Shown here piece after piece: positions 12,847-47,662 of a DNA stretch of 53,033 nucleotides (its first letter is position 1; the number at the start of each line of letters is the position of its first letter). The stretch spans positions 1 to 53,033 of the forward strand of contig CALWEX010000044.1 of the NCBI GenBank assembly GCA_944377425.1, given 5' to 3'. The notes beneath the pieces are model-generated. The model was given only the letters and a program-made list of their open reading frames with translations, had not been told where the DNA came from and did not search any database. The position numbers and the translations under genes were made by a program. Source of the stretch: an uncultured Clostridia bacterium. GTDB taxonomy: Bacteria; Bacillota; Clostridia; Lachnospirales; Anaerotignaceae.

Positions 12847-13112
12847 ATCCATGCGCCCGGCTTCGACACCTGTTCCTAAGCGTTACCTTTTTCCTTAACT
12901 CCAGCCAAGCTACCTCGCGGCACACAGAAGTGCTTACTTAGTGCTGCTTCCTTCCGGACCTGACACGGTTCATAAGTTCCTGTTGCACAAGACTCAGCCT
13001 TCAACGCTCTTTCCAAAGGGCAGACCAGAGAAAAAAGAAGCCTGCACCGGGCGTCACCCCCACTATAGCGGATTGTGGGTACAGGGCGCCGCTACCTCCC
13101 CGGCTAGCACGG
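12847..13112 (-). ncRNA. ffs: signal recognition particle RNA, large bacterial type
   Basis: The minus strand carries the SRP RNA hallmark around 12960-12930: GTGTCAGGTCCGGAAGGAAG followed by CAGCACTAAG, the conserved domain IV hairpin with the GGAA tetraloop that binds Ffh. The 5' region contains CCGGGGAGGTAGCGGCGCCC and GTACCC, the Alu-like domain of Bacillus/Clostridium type. The ends pair (CCGTGC at the 5' end with GCATGG at the 3' end), giving about 266 nt. The exact ends are estimated from that helix. It lies between tadA and dnaX, as in many Clostridia. Confidence 0.95.
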
Positions 13113-21690: not shown

Positions 21691-21821
21691 ATTTAAAACC
21701 CCTTTTTATAACCTTATTACGATTTGAAACATAAACATAATCTCAATAAAAAATTATTTCTCATTGACTAAAAATGTGCTAAAATAGTTAAGATAATTTT
21801 CATTTTTGAAAGGACATGCTT

Positions 21822-22808
21822 ATGTACGAGAAAGTATATTCAAATCCGGAAATTTATAATATTTATGTTCCGCTTCCAAATAATCCACTTAAAAACCTTA
21901 ACTGCTATGTAGTTAAAACACCGGAAAAGAACCTTATTATAGATACGGGTTTTAATTTAAAAGAATGCTATGATGCTTTAAGCACAGGACTTAAGGAGCT
22001 TGATATTGATATTTCAAAAAGCGAAATGTTCCTTACTCACCTGCATTCAGACCACACAGGCCTTGCGCCTTTTATAATGAACAGCGACTCAGTTATTTAT
22101 ATGAGTAAAATTGATTATGAGCATTTAAACAACGAATCGCCGGAATATTCTTGGGATGCTCTATACCGTAAATTTATGTCTGAAGGCTTTCCTAAAGAAG
22201 CAATTCAAAATTTACATAAATCAAATCCGGCTGAAGCTTTCGCACCTGAAAAAGGCTTTAAGGCTGTTACTGTTAACGATGGCGATAAAATAACAATAGG
22301 CGATTATGAGTTTACATGTGTATTTACGCCAGGCCACACACCAGGGCATATGTGCCTTTATTTAGAAAGTGAAAAGCTTATGTTTTTAGGTGACCATGTA
22401 CTTTTTGACATAACCCCTAACATTACATTTTGGACAGGCGTAAGAGATTCACTTAAGGACTACATACAAAGCCTTAATAAAGTTAAAAACCTTGATGTGC
22501 GTACAGCTCTTCCAGCGCACCGTACAAACAGCAAAGACTTTTATGTGCGTATTGACGAAATAATACAGCACCATAACCAAAGGCTTGACGAGTGTTTTAA
22601 CATAGTTAAAAATTCTCCTGGCATGAATGCCTATGATATAGCCGGATTTATGAAATGGTCTATGCGCGGAAGAAATTGGCAGGAATTTCCTATGCATCAA
22701 AAATGGTTTGCCGTTGGTGAGTGTATAGCTCACTTAGATTACCTTAGATACACTAATAAAATTTACAGGCGGTTTGAAAACGGCATATACTGTTATTATG
22801 CCTTTTAA
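21822..22808 (+). CDS. MBL-fold metallo-hydrolase
   Basis: The 328-residue protein has the metallo-beta-lactamase fold: THLHSDH (72-78) provides the two-metal ligands His73, His75, Asp77 and His78, TPGHTPGH (169-176) the next His, GDH (190-192) the bridging Asp and PAHR the last His. The C-terminal third (about 240-328) is a helical domain with WSMRGRNW and a wing-like ending, as in multi-domain MBL proteins of Clostridia. The substrate, perhaps a thioester or lactone, is unknown. The start is the ATG at 21822: AAAGGA at 21809-21814 is 7 nt upstream, whereas the ATG at 21816 is too close. Confidence 0.85.
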   Translation: MYEKVYSNPEIYNIYVPLPNNPLKNLNCYVVKTPEKNLIIDTGFNLKECYDALSTGLKELDIDISKSEMFLTHLHSDHTGLAPFIMNSDSVIYMSKIDYEHLNNESPEYSWDALYRKFMSEGFPKEAIQNLHKSNPAEAFAPEKGFKAVTVNDGDKITIGDYEFTCVFTPGHTPGHMCLYLESEKLMFLGDHVLFDITPNITFWTGVRDSLKDYIQSLNKVKNLDVRTALPAHRTNSKDFYVRIDEIIQHHNQRLDECFNIVKNSPGMNAYDIAGFMKWSMRGRNWQEFPMHQKWFAVGECIAHLDYLRYTNKIYRRFENGIYCYYAF

Positions 22809-24466: not shown

Positions 24467-24495
24467 TTGAAAATTTTTATATGAATTGCTATAAT
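24467..24495 (+). promoter_or_regulatory. sigma-A promoter of the tandem coaX genes
   Basis: TTGAAA (24467-24472), 17-nt spacer, perfect TATAAT (24490-24495), 46 nt before the first ATG. The 24325-24466 stretch to its left is AT-rich and shows nothing else. Confidence 0.85.
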
Positions 24496-24541
24496 AAATC
24501 GAAATTTATACTACCTGCCGGTAATAAGGAGGCACAAAACC

Positions 24542-25327
24542 ATGCTTATGGCTTTAGATGTAAGCAATACAAACATTGAAATAGGCATTCTTGACGGCTA
24601 CGACATAAAAGCCAGATTCAAAATGTCTACAAACACTACTCAGACATCAGATGAGATAGGCAACATTATTTATAAATTCTGTGCTTTTGAAAATGTTGAC
24701 ATATCAAAGCTTGAAAATATAATCATTTCTTCTGTAGTGCCAAACATAATGTACTCACTTACCCACGGCCTTAAAAAATATTTCTGCATAGAGCCTATGG
24801 TGATTAATTCCAATATAAAAACTGGCATAACTCTTGATATGGAGTATCCTTCTCAGCTTGGCAACAACCGCCTTGTAAATCTTGCGGCGGCATACCATTT
24901 TTACGGCGGCCCGGCTATAGTTATAGACTACTCCACAGCCACCACATTTGATGTGCTTGATAAAAACGGCTGTTTTATTACAGGCATTACTGCGCCAGGT
25001 ATTGATATATGCGCTTCGGCACTTTACAAAAAAACCGCTCAGCTGCCTAAAATAGAGCTTAAAAAACCTGACAGCATTTACTGCCGCAATATGGTACAGT
25101 GCATACAGGCCGGTATATACTACGGCCATGTAGGCGAAACAAGGTATATAGTAAACCGCATTAAAAAAGAGCTTGGCTACAGTGATGTTAAAATTATAGC
25201 TACCGGCGGCTTTGCCAGAAGCATAGACTGTGCTAATCACTTTTTTACATATTACGACCCGTATCTTTCATTTAAAGGCATGCGCCTTTTATACGACATG
25301 AATAAAAACGAAAGTGAGGGAAAATAA
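24542..25327 (+). CDS. type III pantothenate kinase paralog, catalytic residues replaced
   Basis: This 261-residue protein aligns without gaps to the adjacent CoaX over its first 140 residues and shares the CoaX/Baf fold. It deviates at three signature positions. The first ATP-binding loop reads DVSNTN (Gly8 replaced by Ser). The GxDR motif with the catalytic aspartate reads GNNR (107-110, Asn109 for Asp). The second phosphate loop reads DYSTATTFD (129-137, Ser131 for Gly). Other folds and motifs, such as TSDEIG, VVPNIMYSLTH and TAQLPK, are kept. It is therefore probably inactive as a kinase or has another role, for example as a partner of the active paralog, since type III enzymes build the active site across a dimer. 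AAGGAGG is 9 nt upstream. The next gene starts 1 nt after its stop. Confidence 0.88.
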   Translation: MLMALDVSNTNIEIGILDGYDIKARFKMSTNTTQTSDEIGNIIYKFCAFENVDISKLENIIISSVVPNIMYSLTHGLKKYFCIEPMVINSNIKTGITLDMEYPSQLGNNRLVNLAAAYHFYGGPAIVIDYSTATTFDVLDKNGCFITGITAPGIDICASALYKKTAQLPKIELKKPDSIYCRNMVQCIQAGIYYGHVGETRYIVNRIKKELGYSDVKIIATGGFARSIDCANHFFTYYDPYLSFKGMRLLYDMNKNESEGK

Positions 25328-25328
25328 T

Positions 25329-26099
25329 ATGCTTCTTGTAGTTGATGTAGGAAACACTAACATGGTAATAGGCCTTTATAAAGGCGATGACCTTATAAAA
25401 ACATGGCGCATGAATACCCAGACCGCCCGTACATCAGACGAAATAGGTATTATAATAAATTCATTCTTTAAAGATGATAACATAGACCTTAAAGAAATAA
25501 CCGGCGCCATTATAGCCTCTGTTGTGCCTAATATAATGTATTCCCTTACCCACAGCATTAAAAAATATATAGGTGTTGAGCCTATGGTGGTTTCTGCTGA
25601 CATGGATTTGGGTATTACAATAGTAAGGGACAACCCTAGAGAGTGCGGTGTTGACAGAATAGTAGATATAGTAGCCGCCAAAGAGCTTTACGGCACACCT
25701 GCTATAGTTATTGATTACGGCACAGCCAATACATTTGATGTTATAAACGAGAAAAACGAGTTTATAACAGGCTTTATAACAGCCGGAGTTAAAATATGCG
25801 CCGAAGAGCTTTACAACCGCTCAGCACAGCTGCCTAAAGTAGAGCTTGTTACACCTAAAAATATTATAGCCAAAGACACTGTTACAAGCCTTCAAATAGG
25901 TATTGTAGCCGGCAGAATAGGCGAAACAATAGGCATTATAGAAGCATTAAAAGAAGGCCTTAACATACCTAACGCCAAAGTTGTGGCAACTGGTGGACTT
26001 GCCAATGTAATAGACCCAAACAGAGAAATATTCGATGTTTATGACCCTGTTTTAACACTTACAGGCATTAAAATACTTTACGACAGAAACAAAAAGTAA
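25329..26099 (+). CDS. coaX: type III pantothenate kinase
   Basis: CoaX phosphorylates pantothenate, the first step of coenzyme A synthesis, using ATP and usually needing a monovalent cation. The 256 residues retain all signature motifs: DVGNTN (6-11), TSDEIG, GVDR with catalytic Asp109, and DYGTANTFD (129-137). The start is the ATG at 25329, with GAGGG 8 nt upstream inside the previous gene's last codons; the GTG at 25314 would place the start inside the ribosome site. The single-nucleotide gap to the degenerate paralog means coupled translation and probably near-equal expression. Ends in a terminator. Confidence 0.95.
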   Translation: MLLVVDVGNTNMVIGLYKGDDLIKTWRMNTQTARTSDEIGIIINSFFKDDNIDLKEITGAIIASVVPNIMYSLTHSIKKYIGVEPMVVSADMDLGITIVRDNPRECGVDRIVDIVAAKELYGTPAIVIDYGTANTFDVINEKNEFITGFITAGVKICAEELYNRSAQLPKVELVTPKNIIAKDTVTSLQIGIVAGRIGETIGIIEALKEGLNIPNAKVVATGGLANVIDPNREIFDVYDPVLTLTGIKILYDRNKK

Positions 26100-26103
26100 T
26101 TAA

Positions 26104-26150
26104 CAAGCGCATTGTGTTTTGCAAAAGCAGAATACAAGCGCTTTTTTATT
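26104..26150 (+). terminator. terminator after coaX
   Basis: AAGCGC with TTGT and inner GTTTTGC pair with GCAGAAT, ACAA and GCGCTT, then TTTTTTATTT. Confidence 0.75.
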
Positions 26151-44499: not shown

Positions 44500-44796
44500 A
44501 CAAAAAAGCCTTCATCTCTGTTTGTCAGAGACGAAGGCTTAAGCTTCCGTGGTACCACTCTAATTTATTCCTAATGGAATACACTCTTTCAGATACAGGT
44601 TAAACCGATATCCTGCCGCTGTAACGGTCGGCTTCCGTTCCGTCCTATCCTCGGGGATAACCCCTACTTTCAGCGGAACACTCCAAGGCGAGTTCAGTTT
44701 ATTTGGCCTAACGCCTCGCACCGTACGGCGTCTCTCTGAAAAGCTCCCTAAACTTACTATTCCTCATCACAGTGTTGTAAAAGTAATTTATTTGTT
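44500..44796 (-). promoter_or_regulatory. T-box leader, leucine (CTC specifier)
   Basis: The minus-strand leader of leuA has the T-box AGAGTGGTACCACGG (about 44563-44546) followed by the terminator stem AAGCCTTC...GAAGGCTT (44540-44503) and a T run. The 5' part reads GATGAGGAATAGTAAG, the usual Stem I start, with a specifier loop CTGAACTCGCC. The CTC codon indicates uncharged tRNA-Leu as the signal, and UGGU in the T-box pairs with ACCA of a tRNA with discriminator A. Low leucyl-tRNA charging thus lets transcription read through into leuA. Confidence 0.95.
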
Positions 44797-47589: not shown

Positions 47590-47662
47590 CGAGGTGTGGC
47601 TCAGGTGGTAGAGCGCTGCGTTCGGGACGCAGAGGCCGCAAGTTCGAGTCTTGTCACCTCGA
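47590..47662 (+). tRNA. tRNA-Pro (anticodon CGG)
   Basis: A complete cloverleaf of 73 nt: acceptor CGAGGTG / CACCTCG, D stem GCTC/GAGC, anticodon stem CTGCG/CGCAG with loop TTCGGGA (anticodon CGG at 47623-47625), T arm with TTCGAGT, discriminator A. The CCA end is not encoded. It reads CCG. Confidence 0.97.

Follow-up and report, generated by a model that had tools for sequence, protein, structure and literature searches.

A tandem pair of CoaX paralogues in the Anaerotignaceae points to a possible pseudo-kinase partner for a type III pantothenate kinase

We describe two adjacent genes for type III pantothenate kinases (CoaX), coaX-A and coaX-B, of which the first lacks the catalytic aspartate and the second is predicted to be active. 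They lie in the genome of an uncultured Clostridia bacterium of the family Anaerotignaceae (assembly GCA_944377425.1, contig CALWEX010000044.1); the whole stretch of DNA analysed, 53,033 nucleotides long, is called the window here. Our preferred reading, to which we give a probability of about one half, is that coaX-A serves the working kinase coaX-B as a structural or allosteric partner, most likely in a prozyme-like A:B hetero-oligomer. Both copies stem from a single old duplication of a type III pantothenate kinase gene. coaX-B would be the working kinase and supply the catalytic residues, and coaX-A, at least as found in this genus, would be a pseudo-kinase that has kept the fold and the dimer segment and lost Asp109 and Thr184. 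The two chains would meet at the interface that normally joins CoaX dimers, and there coaX-A, with the Pro-Gly of the INTERFACE motif (the proline is lost in coaX-B), would complete or tune the assembly. The inactivity of coaX-A as a kinase, the A:B heteromer and the direction of any regulation are what we infer from the sequences; a role as heterodimer partner or regulatory subunit, as the sequence-only reading of this DNA had proposed, is plausible and draws indirect support from the reciprocal loss of motif residues and the tightened coupling of the two genes.

The gene pair and its surroundings

coaX-A (24542-25327, forward strand) is predicted from its PF03309 match, orthologue group and structure model to encode a non-catalytic type III pantothenate kinase paralogue of 261 residues, and coaX-B (25329-26099, forward strand), from PF03309 and its intact residues, an active enzyme of 256 residues. 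Both are full-length proteins that match the PF03309 profile (E values of 9e-59 and 1e-62, respectively), and coaX-A scores 188 bits against TIGR00671, where the cut-off is 58. A gapless alignment of the two proteins covers 255 residues at 47% identity, well beyond the 140 gapless residues that the sequence-only reading had claimed. The TAA stop of coaX-A (25325-25327) and the ATG of coaX-B (25329) agree with the 1-nt gap reported there; an alternative GTG for coaX-B at 25314 would make the genes overlap. Exactly two PF03309 genes, this pair, are present in the source genome, together with one copy of coaBC. No type I pantothenate kinase (CoaA) was detected in that genome, and a search for type II enzymes with PF03630 (Fumble) was as empty for the controls as for the query and so carries no weight. 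The NCBIfam equivalog NF009855 accepts coaX-A (256 bits, cut-off 233), so annotation pipelines would label it an active pantothenate kinase.

The AlphaFold2 model of coaX-A (mean pLDDT 88.8) resembles the CoaX structures of B. anthracis, L. pneumophila, M. tuberculosis and T. maritima most closely among solved folds, with TM scores of 0.89-0.91 to the best of them, 2h3g and 3djc. Compared with the CoaX family as a whole (PF03309, TIGR00671; for example, 2h3g of B. anthracis and 3bf3 of T. maritima), the likeness extends over the full length (TM 0.84-0.91) and includes the dimer segment, Asn9, Arg110, Asp129 and Thr132, and coaX-B has nearly all of the family motifs. The pair departs from the family in that coaX-A is without Asp109 and Thr184 and coaX-B without Pro152 and Thr134, and in that a homodimer encoded by one gene is replaced here by two chains from a gene pair. 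In the model of coaX-B (pLDDT 81.5), confidence is lowest for residues 152-173, at and just after the INTERFACE motif, an outcome that might be anticipated when a dimer segment is modelled as a single chain.

Several signals surround the pair, all on the forward strand. A promoter-like site upstream of coaX-A (24467-24495; TTGAAA-17-TATAAT, with TG before the second hexamer) matches the consensus at 11 of 12 positions and is a consensus match only. The Shine-Dalgarno sequence AAGGAGG of coaX-A (24526-24532) and a Shine-Dalgarno-like GAGGGA for coaX-B, within the 3' end of coaX-A (25316-25321), can be read directly, and a terminator-like hairpin with a T run is predicted after coaX-B (26112-26147). 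In this genus (g1), genes on the opposite strand lie on both sides of the pair. coaX-A and coaX-B look like a two-gene operon whose members are probably cotranscribed. At the pair itself, Rfam gave no hit to a riboswitch or any other RNA; elsewhere in the window it marks a large SRP RNA (12849-13112, reverse strand), a T-box leader (44524-44779, reverse strand) and a tRNA (47590-47662, forward strand).

Distribution, origin and selection

The pair is a feature of the family. coaX-A followed directly by coaX-B was found in 51 of the 58 Anaerotignaceae genomes (in four of which A is fragmented or cut by a contig end), and the remaining seven have a single CoaX at the same position. In trees, the copies fall into two orthologue groups, A and B, each of which mirrors the genera; support is good for the B clade (97) and modest for the A clade (68-73; 68 when the single copies of genera g13 and g15 are included). 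On these trees, the A and B groups go back to a single duplication close to the base of the family. Six genera (g1, which is the genus of the source genome, g9, g11, g12, g14 and g17) form what we call subclade II, supported in the A tree (100), the B tree (100) and the RpoB tree. With start codons picked by alignment, the stop of A and the start of B are mostly 11 to 26 nt apart in subclade I (-10 in g6) and -17 to +1 nt apart in subclade II. In most genera examined, the pair is preceded by a gene for biotin ligase, DUF6145 or an ECF transporter and followed by dusB. These usual flanks have been replaced in g1 and g11, and coaX-A and coaX-B are still together. The pair has an MBL-fold hydrolase gene nearby in g1 (21816-22808 in the window) and one directly before it in g11 (L054), a linkage common to the two genera in which the pair has moved.

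Outside the family, two PF03309 matches are listed for 35 genomes in a sample of 392 from the order, and only one of these (G347, of another family; L103:193-1851) has an adjacent pair of complete copies. Its first copy reads GSNM, with Asn109 and Asn6, and its second keeps GSDR; it is independent of the Anaerotignaceae pair. In a phylum sample of 299 genomes, no adjacent complete pair was seen among the two-copy genomes followed up. We also checked second copies from other families for a general tendency of a second CoaX to lose Asp109 and discarded the idea, as only the adjacent pair of G347 shows the loss. Literature searches turned up no tandem CoaX pair that spans a family and has lost motifs reciprocally.

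Other CoaX lines in these samples are unusual in their own right. Many Lachnospirales-type proteins from two-copy genomes (L089-L102, L193-L212) have Leu or Met in place of Arg110 (GPDL, GSDL, GSDM), a replacement described for Mycoplasma, and their activity or substrate may differ. Genomes of g13 and g15 without a B copy carry a third, divergent CoaX type at another site (L064, L065, L066, L061), with the motifs GxDM or GxDL and DLGTAST or DMGTSTT. Two further genomes (G484 and G447; L179, L180) encode a CoaX with Asn for the cation-site Asp129 together with GxDL, possibly another degenerate line.

Both members of the pair are maintained by selection. In the three unsaturated pairs within g1, dN/dS for A was 0.065, 0.077 and 0.065, and the corresponding values for B were 0.075, 0.051 and 0.074; purifying selection acts on A as strongly as on B. 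Both copies evolved fast relative to RpoB along the branch that leads to subclade II: the stem between subclades I and II takes up 8.7% of tree length for B and 4.4% for A, compared with 2.4% for RpoB. The proposal that coaX-A has been selected for a non-kinase role gains support from the matching dN/dS of about 0.07 in A and B and from the survival of the pair after its flanks were replaced. Two observations had been named beforehand as jointly telling against that proposal; relatives that carry the pair with Asp109 intact do exist, and relaxed selection on coaX-A is clearly absent.

Residues lost in the two copies

By HAMAP numbering we take position 184 to be the substrate-site threonine, presumably a substrate contact that may come from the neighbouring subunit (HAMAP, structure papers); that residue 184 and the INTERFACE motif make contacts across the CoaX dimer is likewise our assumption, drawn from the literature. 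In type III kinases, the PAN motif, in which Asp109 is the annotated proton acceptor, and the INTERFACE motif jointly make up the substrate site (PMC8721197). Among 57 outgroup CoaX proteins, Gly131 and Thr134 are present in all 57, Asp109 and Thr184 in 56, and Pro152 and Gly8 in 55. The residues that the sequence-only reading had named (Ser8, Asn109 and Ser131 in coaX-A, where coaX-B has Gly, Asp and Gly) are all seen in the alignment. Its list was incomplete in that it overlooked the change of Thr184 to Met (codon 25091-25093, forward strand).

These changes are not of equal weight. Asn replaces the catalytic Asp of the PAN motif in coaX-A (codon 24866-24868, forward strand), which reads GNNR where hGhDR is expected, and the proton acceptor is missing. 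Asn109 is found in all five readable A copies of g1 and in eight A copies of subclade II overall (g1, g9 and g11); within the family, loss of Asp109 is confined to the A copies of these three genera. Thr184 is missing from 15/15 A copies of subclade II, which have Ile, Met or Lys instead. Both residues are kept in every A copy of subclade I. Two separate losses of Asp109 are most likely, one in g9 and the other in g1 with g11, because g9 falls outside the other five genera of subclade II in the RpoB tree (95) and with g12, g14 and g17 in the A tree (98); the alternative is one loss and one reversal.

The Ser residues tell a different story. Of 32 A copies in subclade I, 17 have Ser8 at the PHOSPHATE1 glycine of most CoaX (codon 24563-24565, forward strand). 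Ser131, at the PHOSPHATE2 glycine (codon 24932-24934, forward strand), is a trait of the A group present in 42 of 48 paired A copies (33/33 in subclade I, 9/15 in subclade II). Both are thus common in A copies with Asp109, and in one g13 genome (G042, 95% complete) a CoaX with Ser131 is the only PF03309 match. We therefore regard them as lineage traits and reject them as marks of catalytic death, so that the earlier description of a destroyed motif does not hold for these two sites, while the losses of Asp109 and Thr184 look real. Judging from the alignments, chance is excluded as the origin of the changes in coaX-A, because they are fixed across species whose synonymous divergence reaches or exceeds saturation and because the positions are 95-100% invariant in the 57 outgroup proteins. 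The A copies of g1 differ at seven of the 34 positions that never vary in the outgroup; ligand positions make up four of these seven and five of the 27 unchanged sites, a borderline enrichment (Fisher P 0.06) that is suggestive only.

Copy B has changed elsewhere. Asp109, Gly131 and Thr184 are intact in 51/51 B copies, as are PHOSPHATE1, Arg110 of the PAN motif, and Asp129 and Thr132 of PHOSPHATE2. The INTERFACE motif GGxIxPG reads TGFITAG in coaX-B of the window, where Ala replaces Pro152 (codon 25782-25784, forward strand), as it does in all 16 B copies of subclade II; Pro152 is kept in 48/48 A copies, including the 15 of subclade II. At position 134, coaX-B has Asn (codon 25728-25730, forward strand) and coaX-A Thr; all B copies have Asn or Asp. 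Deviations from the INTERFACE motif are known in type III kinases of Mycoplasma (PMC8721197), so coaX-B may still be active. Family-wide, A and B differ by fixed residues at five positions (98, 100, 131, 134 and 150), each located inside one of the substrate, PHOSPHATE2 and INTERFACE segments or next to it. The two copies also share a change of Leu to Phe at position 46, which maps to the branch that separates subclades I and II. Within one clade, then, A lacks Thr184 (and Asp109 in three genera) and B lacks Pro152, which is the reciprocal loss of active-site or interface residues in two paralogues that characterizes the apicomplexan type of pair.

What coaX-A may do

As the A copies of g1 are without Asp109 and Thr184, a complete active site could not use the A pocket, and coaX-A would therefore act structurally, or in an allosteric or regulatory way. 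The same losses disfavour a simple composite site built with A's pocket residues in this genus. In g12, g14 and g17, whose A copies keep Asp109, it is conceivable that the A pocket is completed by Thr184 of B, and subclade I, with Asp109 and Thr184 intact in A as well as in B, could on the residue evidence have two active homodimers. In favour of the partner reading we count the lasting adjacency of the pair, the equal selection on its members, the reciprocal losses, the fixed A/B differences, the fast evolution of both genes on the stem of subclade II, the tightened spacing, the lack of a detected type I enzyme beside a single coaBC, and the independent pair of G347. Conserved adjacency within the family is not by itself proof of a complex.

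Dead-paralogue partners, heteromeric type II pantothenate kinases and non-kinase CoaX proteins are all already known. Apicomplexan PanK1 and PanK2 are two paralogues with complementary losses of active-site residues, for which a single complete site has been proposed and both chains are needed (PMC8366970); they are eukaryotic type II enzymes, whereas here the genes are adjacent and A has lost PAN-motif and position-184 residues. The trypanosomatid prozymes of AdoMetDC and deoxyhypusine synthase likewise pair a dead paralogue with a live twin, which it activates through oligomerization (PMC5201418, PMC3663545). Those enzymes and organisms are unrelated to ours, and the activation demonstrated there is inferred for coaX-A and coaX-B. 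A stronger form of the partner reading, which we advance tentatively and at less than even odds, is that subclade II relies on an obligate A:B heteromer as its kinase. Such a heteromer would be the first of its kind among bacteria and among type III enzymes, and stepwise reciprocal loss would have left A a dead allosteric chain and B an impaired catalytic one.

The leading rival, which we judge unlikely, is that coaX-A is a free-standing sensor of pantothenate or CoA whose target is another protein and which lies in an operon with coaX-B for co-regulation only. M. tuberculosis CoaX (9b78, 9cku) offers a precedent, as it has kept the fold, has Arg at Gly8 and is reported as non-functional as a kinase; it is a trimer of dimers that serves as a pantothenate-responsive regulator of Dop and alters PanB depupylation on pantothenate (PMC12288473). 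It ranks tenth among structures for coaX-A, and Arg110, kept in 48/48 A copies, together with Asn9, Asp129 and Thr132, means that ligand binding may persist. However, M. tuberculosis CoaX keeps Asp109 and Thr184 in the alignment and accompanies a type I pantothenate kinase, not an active CoaX. A Pup-Dop system is not expected in Clostridia, which we count against a sensor. A sensor role also predicts neither the conserved adjacency to B nor the reciprocal losses of Pro152 and Thr184, and the ATP site is eroded in several A copies, by loss of Thr10 and, in g9, of Asp6 too.

That erosion also bears on a second alternative, which we find distinctly improbable, namely that coaX-A is a kinase with a new substrate whose pocket was reshaped by the loss of Asp109 and Thr184 and in which another residue serves as base. 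The A copies of g1 do keep the ATP-binding residues Asp6, Asn9, Asp129 and Thr132, and purifying selection suits an enzyme. Yet the ATP site decays in the Asp109-less A copies of g9 (Asn6 and loss of Thr10) and g11 (Leu10), and no new invariant acidic residue was identified in A as a replacement base. An equally poor case can be made for continued phosphorylation of pantothenate by coaX-A, with Asn109 tolerated and the pair providing dosage or two kinetic forms. Ser8 and Ser131 are compatible with an otherwise intact kinase, and the A copies of subclade I have both key residues, but the residue missing from coaX-A is the annotated proton acceptor, nearly universal in the outgroup, and Thr184 is lost as well. 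Finally, we dismiss the idea that coaX-A is a duplicate in decay or an error of assembly, for which only the loss of catalytic residues speaks, as readable A frames are open in independent assemblies of many species and dN/dS is near 0.07 in the genus.

Coenzyme A synthesis begins with pantothenate kinase. CoA reportedly does not inhibit the type III enzymes (PMC12570885), which leaves control of the pathway in CoaX-only bacteria largely open. If the partner reading is correct, a dead CoaX selected beside a live one would be a built-in regulator of coenzyme A synthesis. If the obligate heteromer also proves right, living genera would have kept the intermediates of its formation, first with both copies intact, then with Thr184 and Pro152 lost and then with Asp109 lost; the graded stages within the family, from two intact copies to one dead one, would offer a natural series for the passage from homodimer to heteromer.
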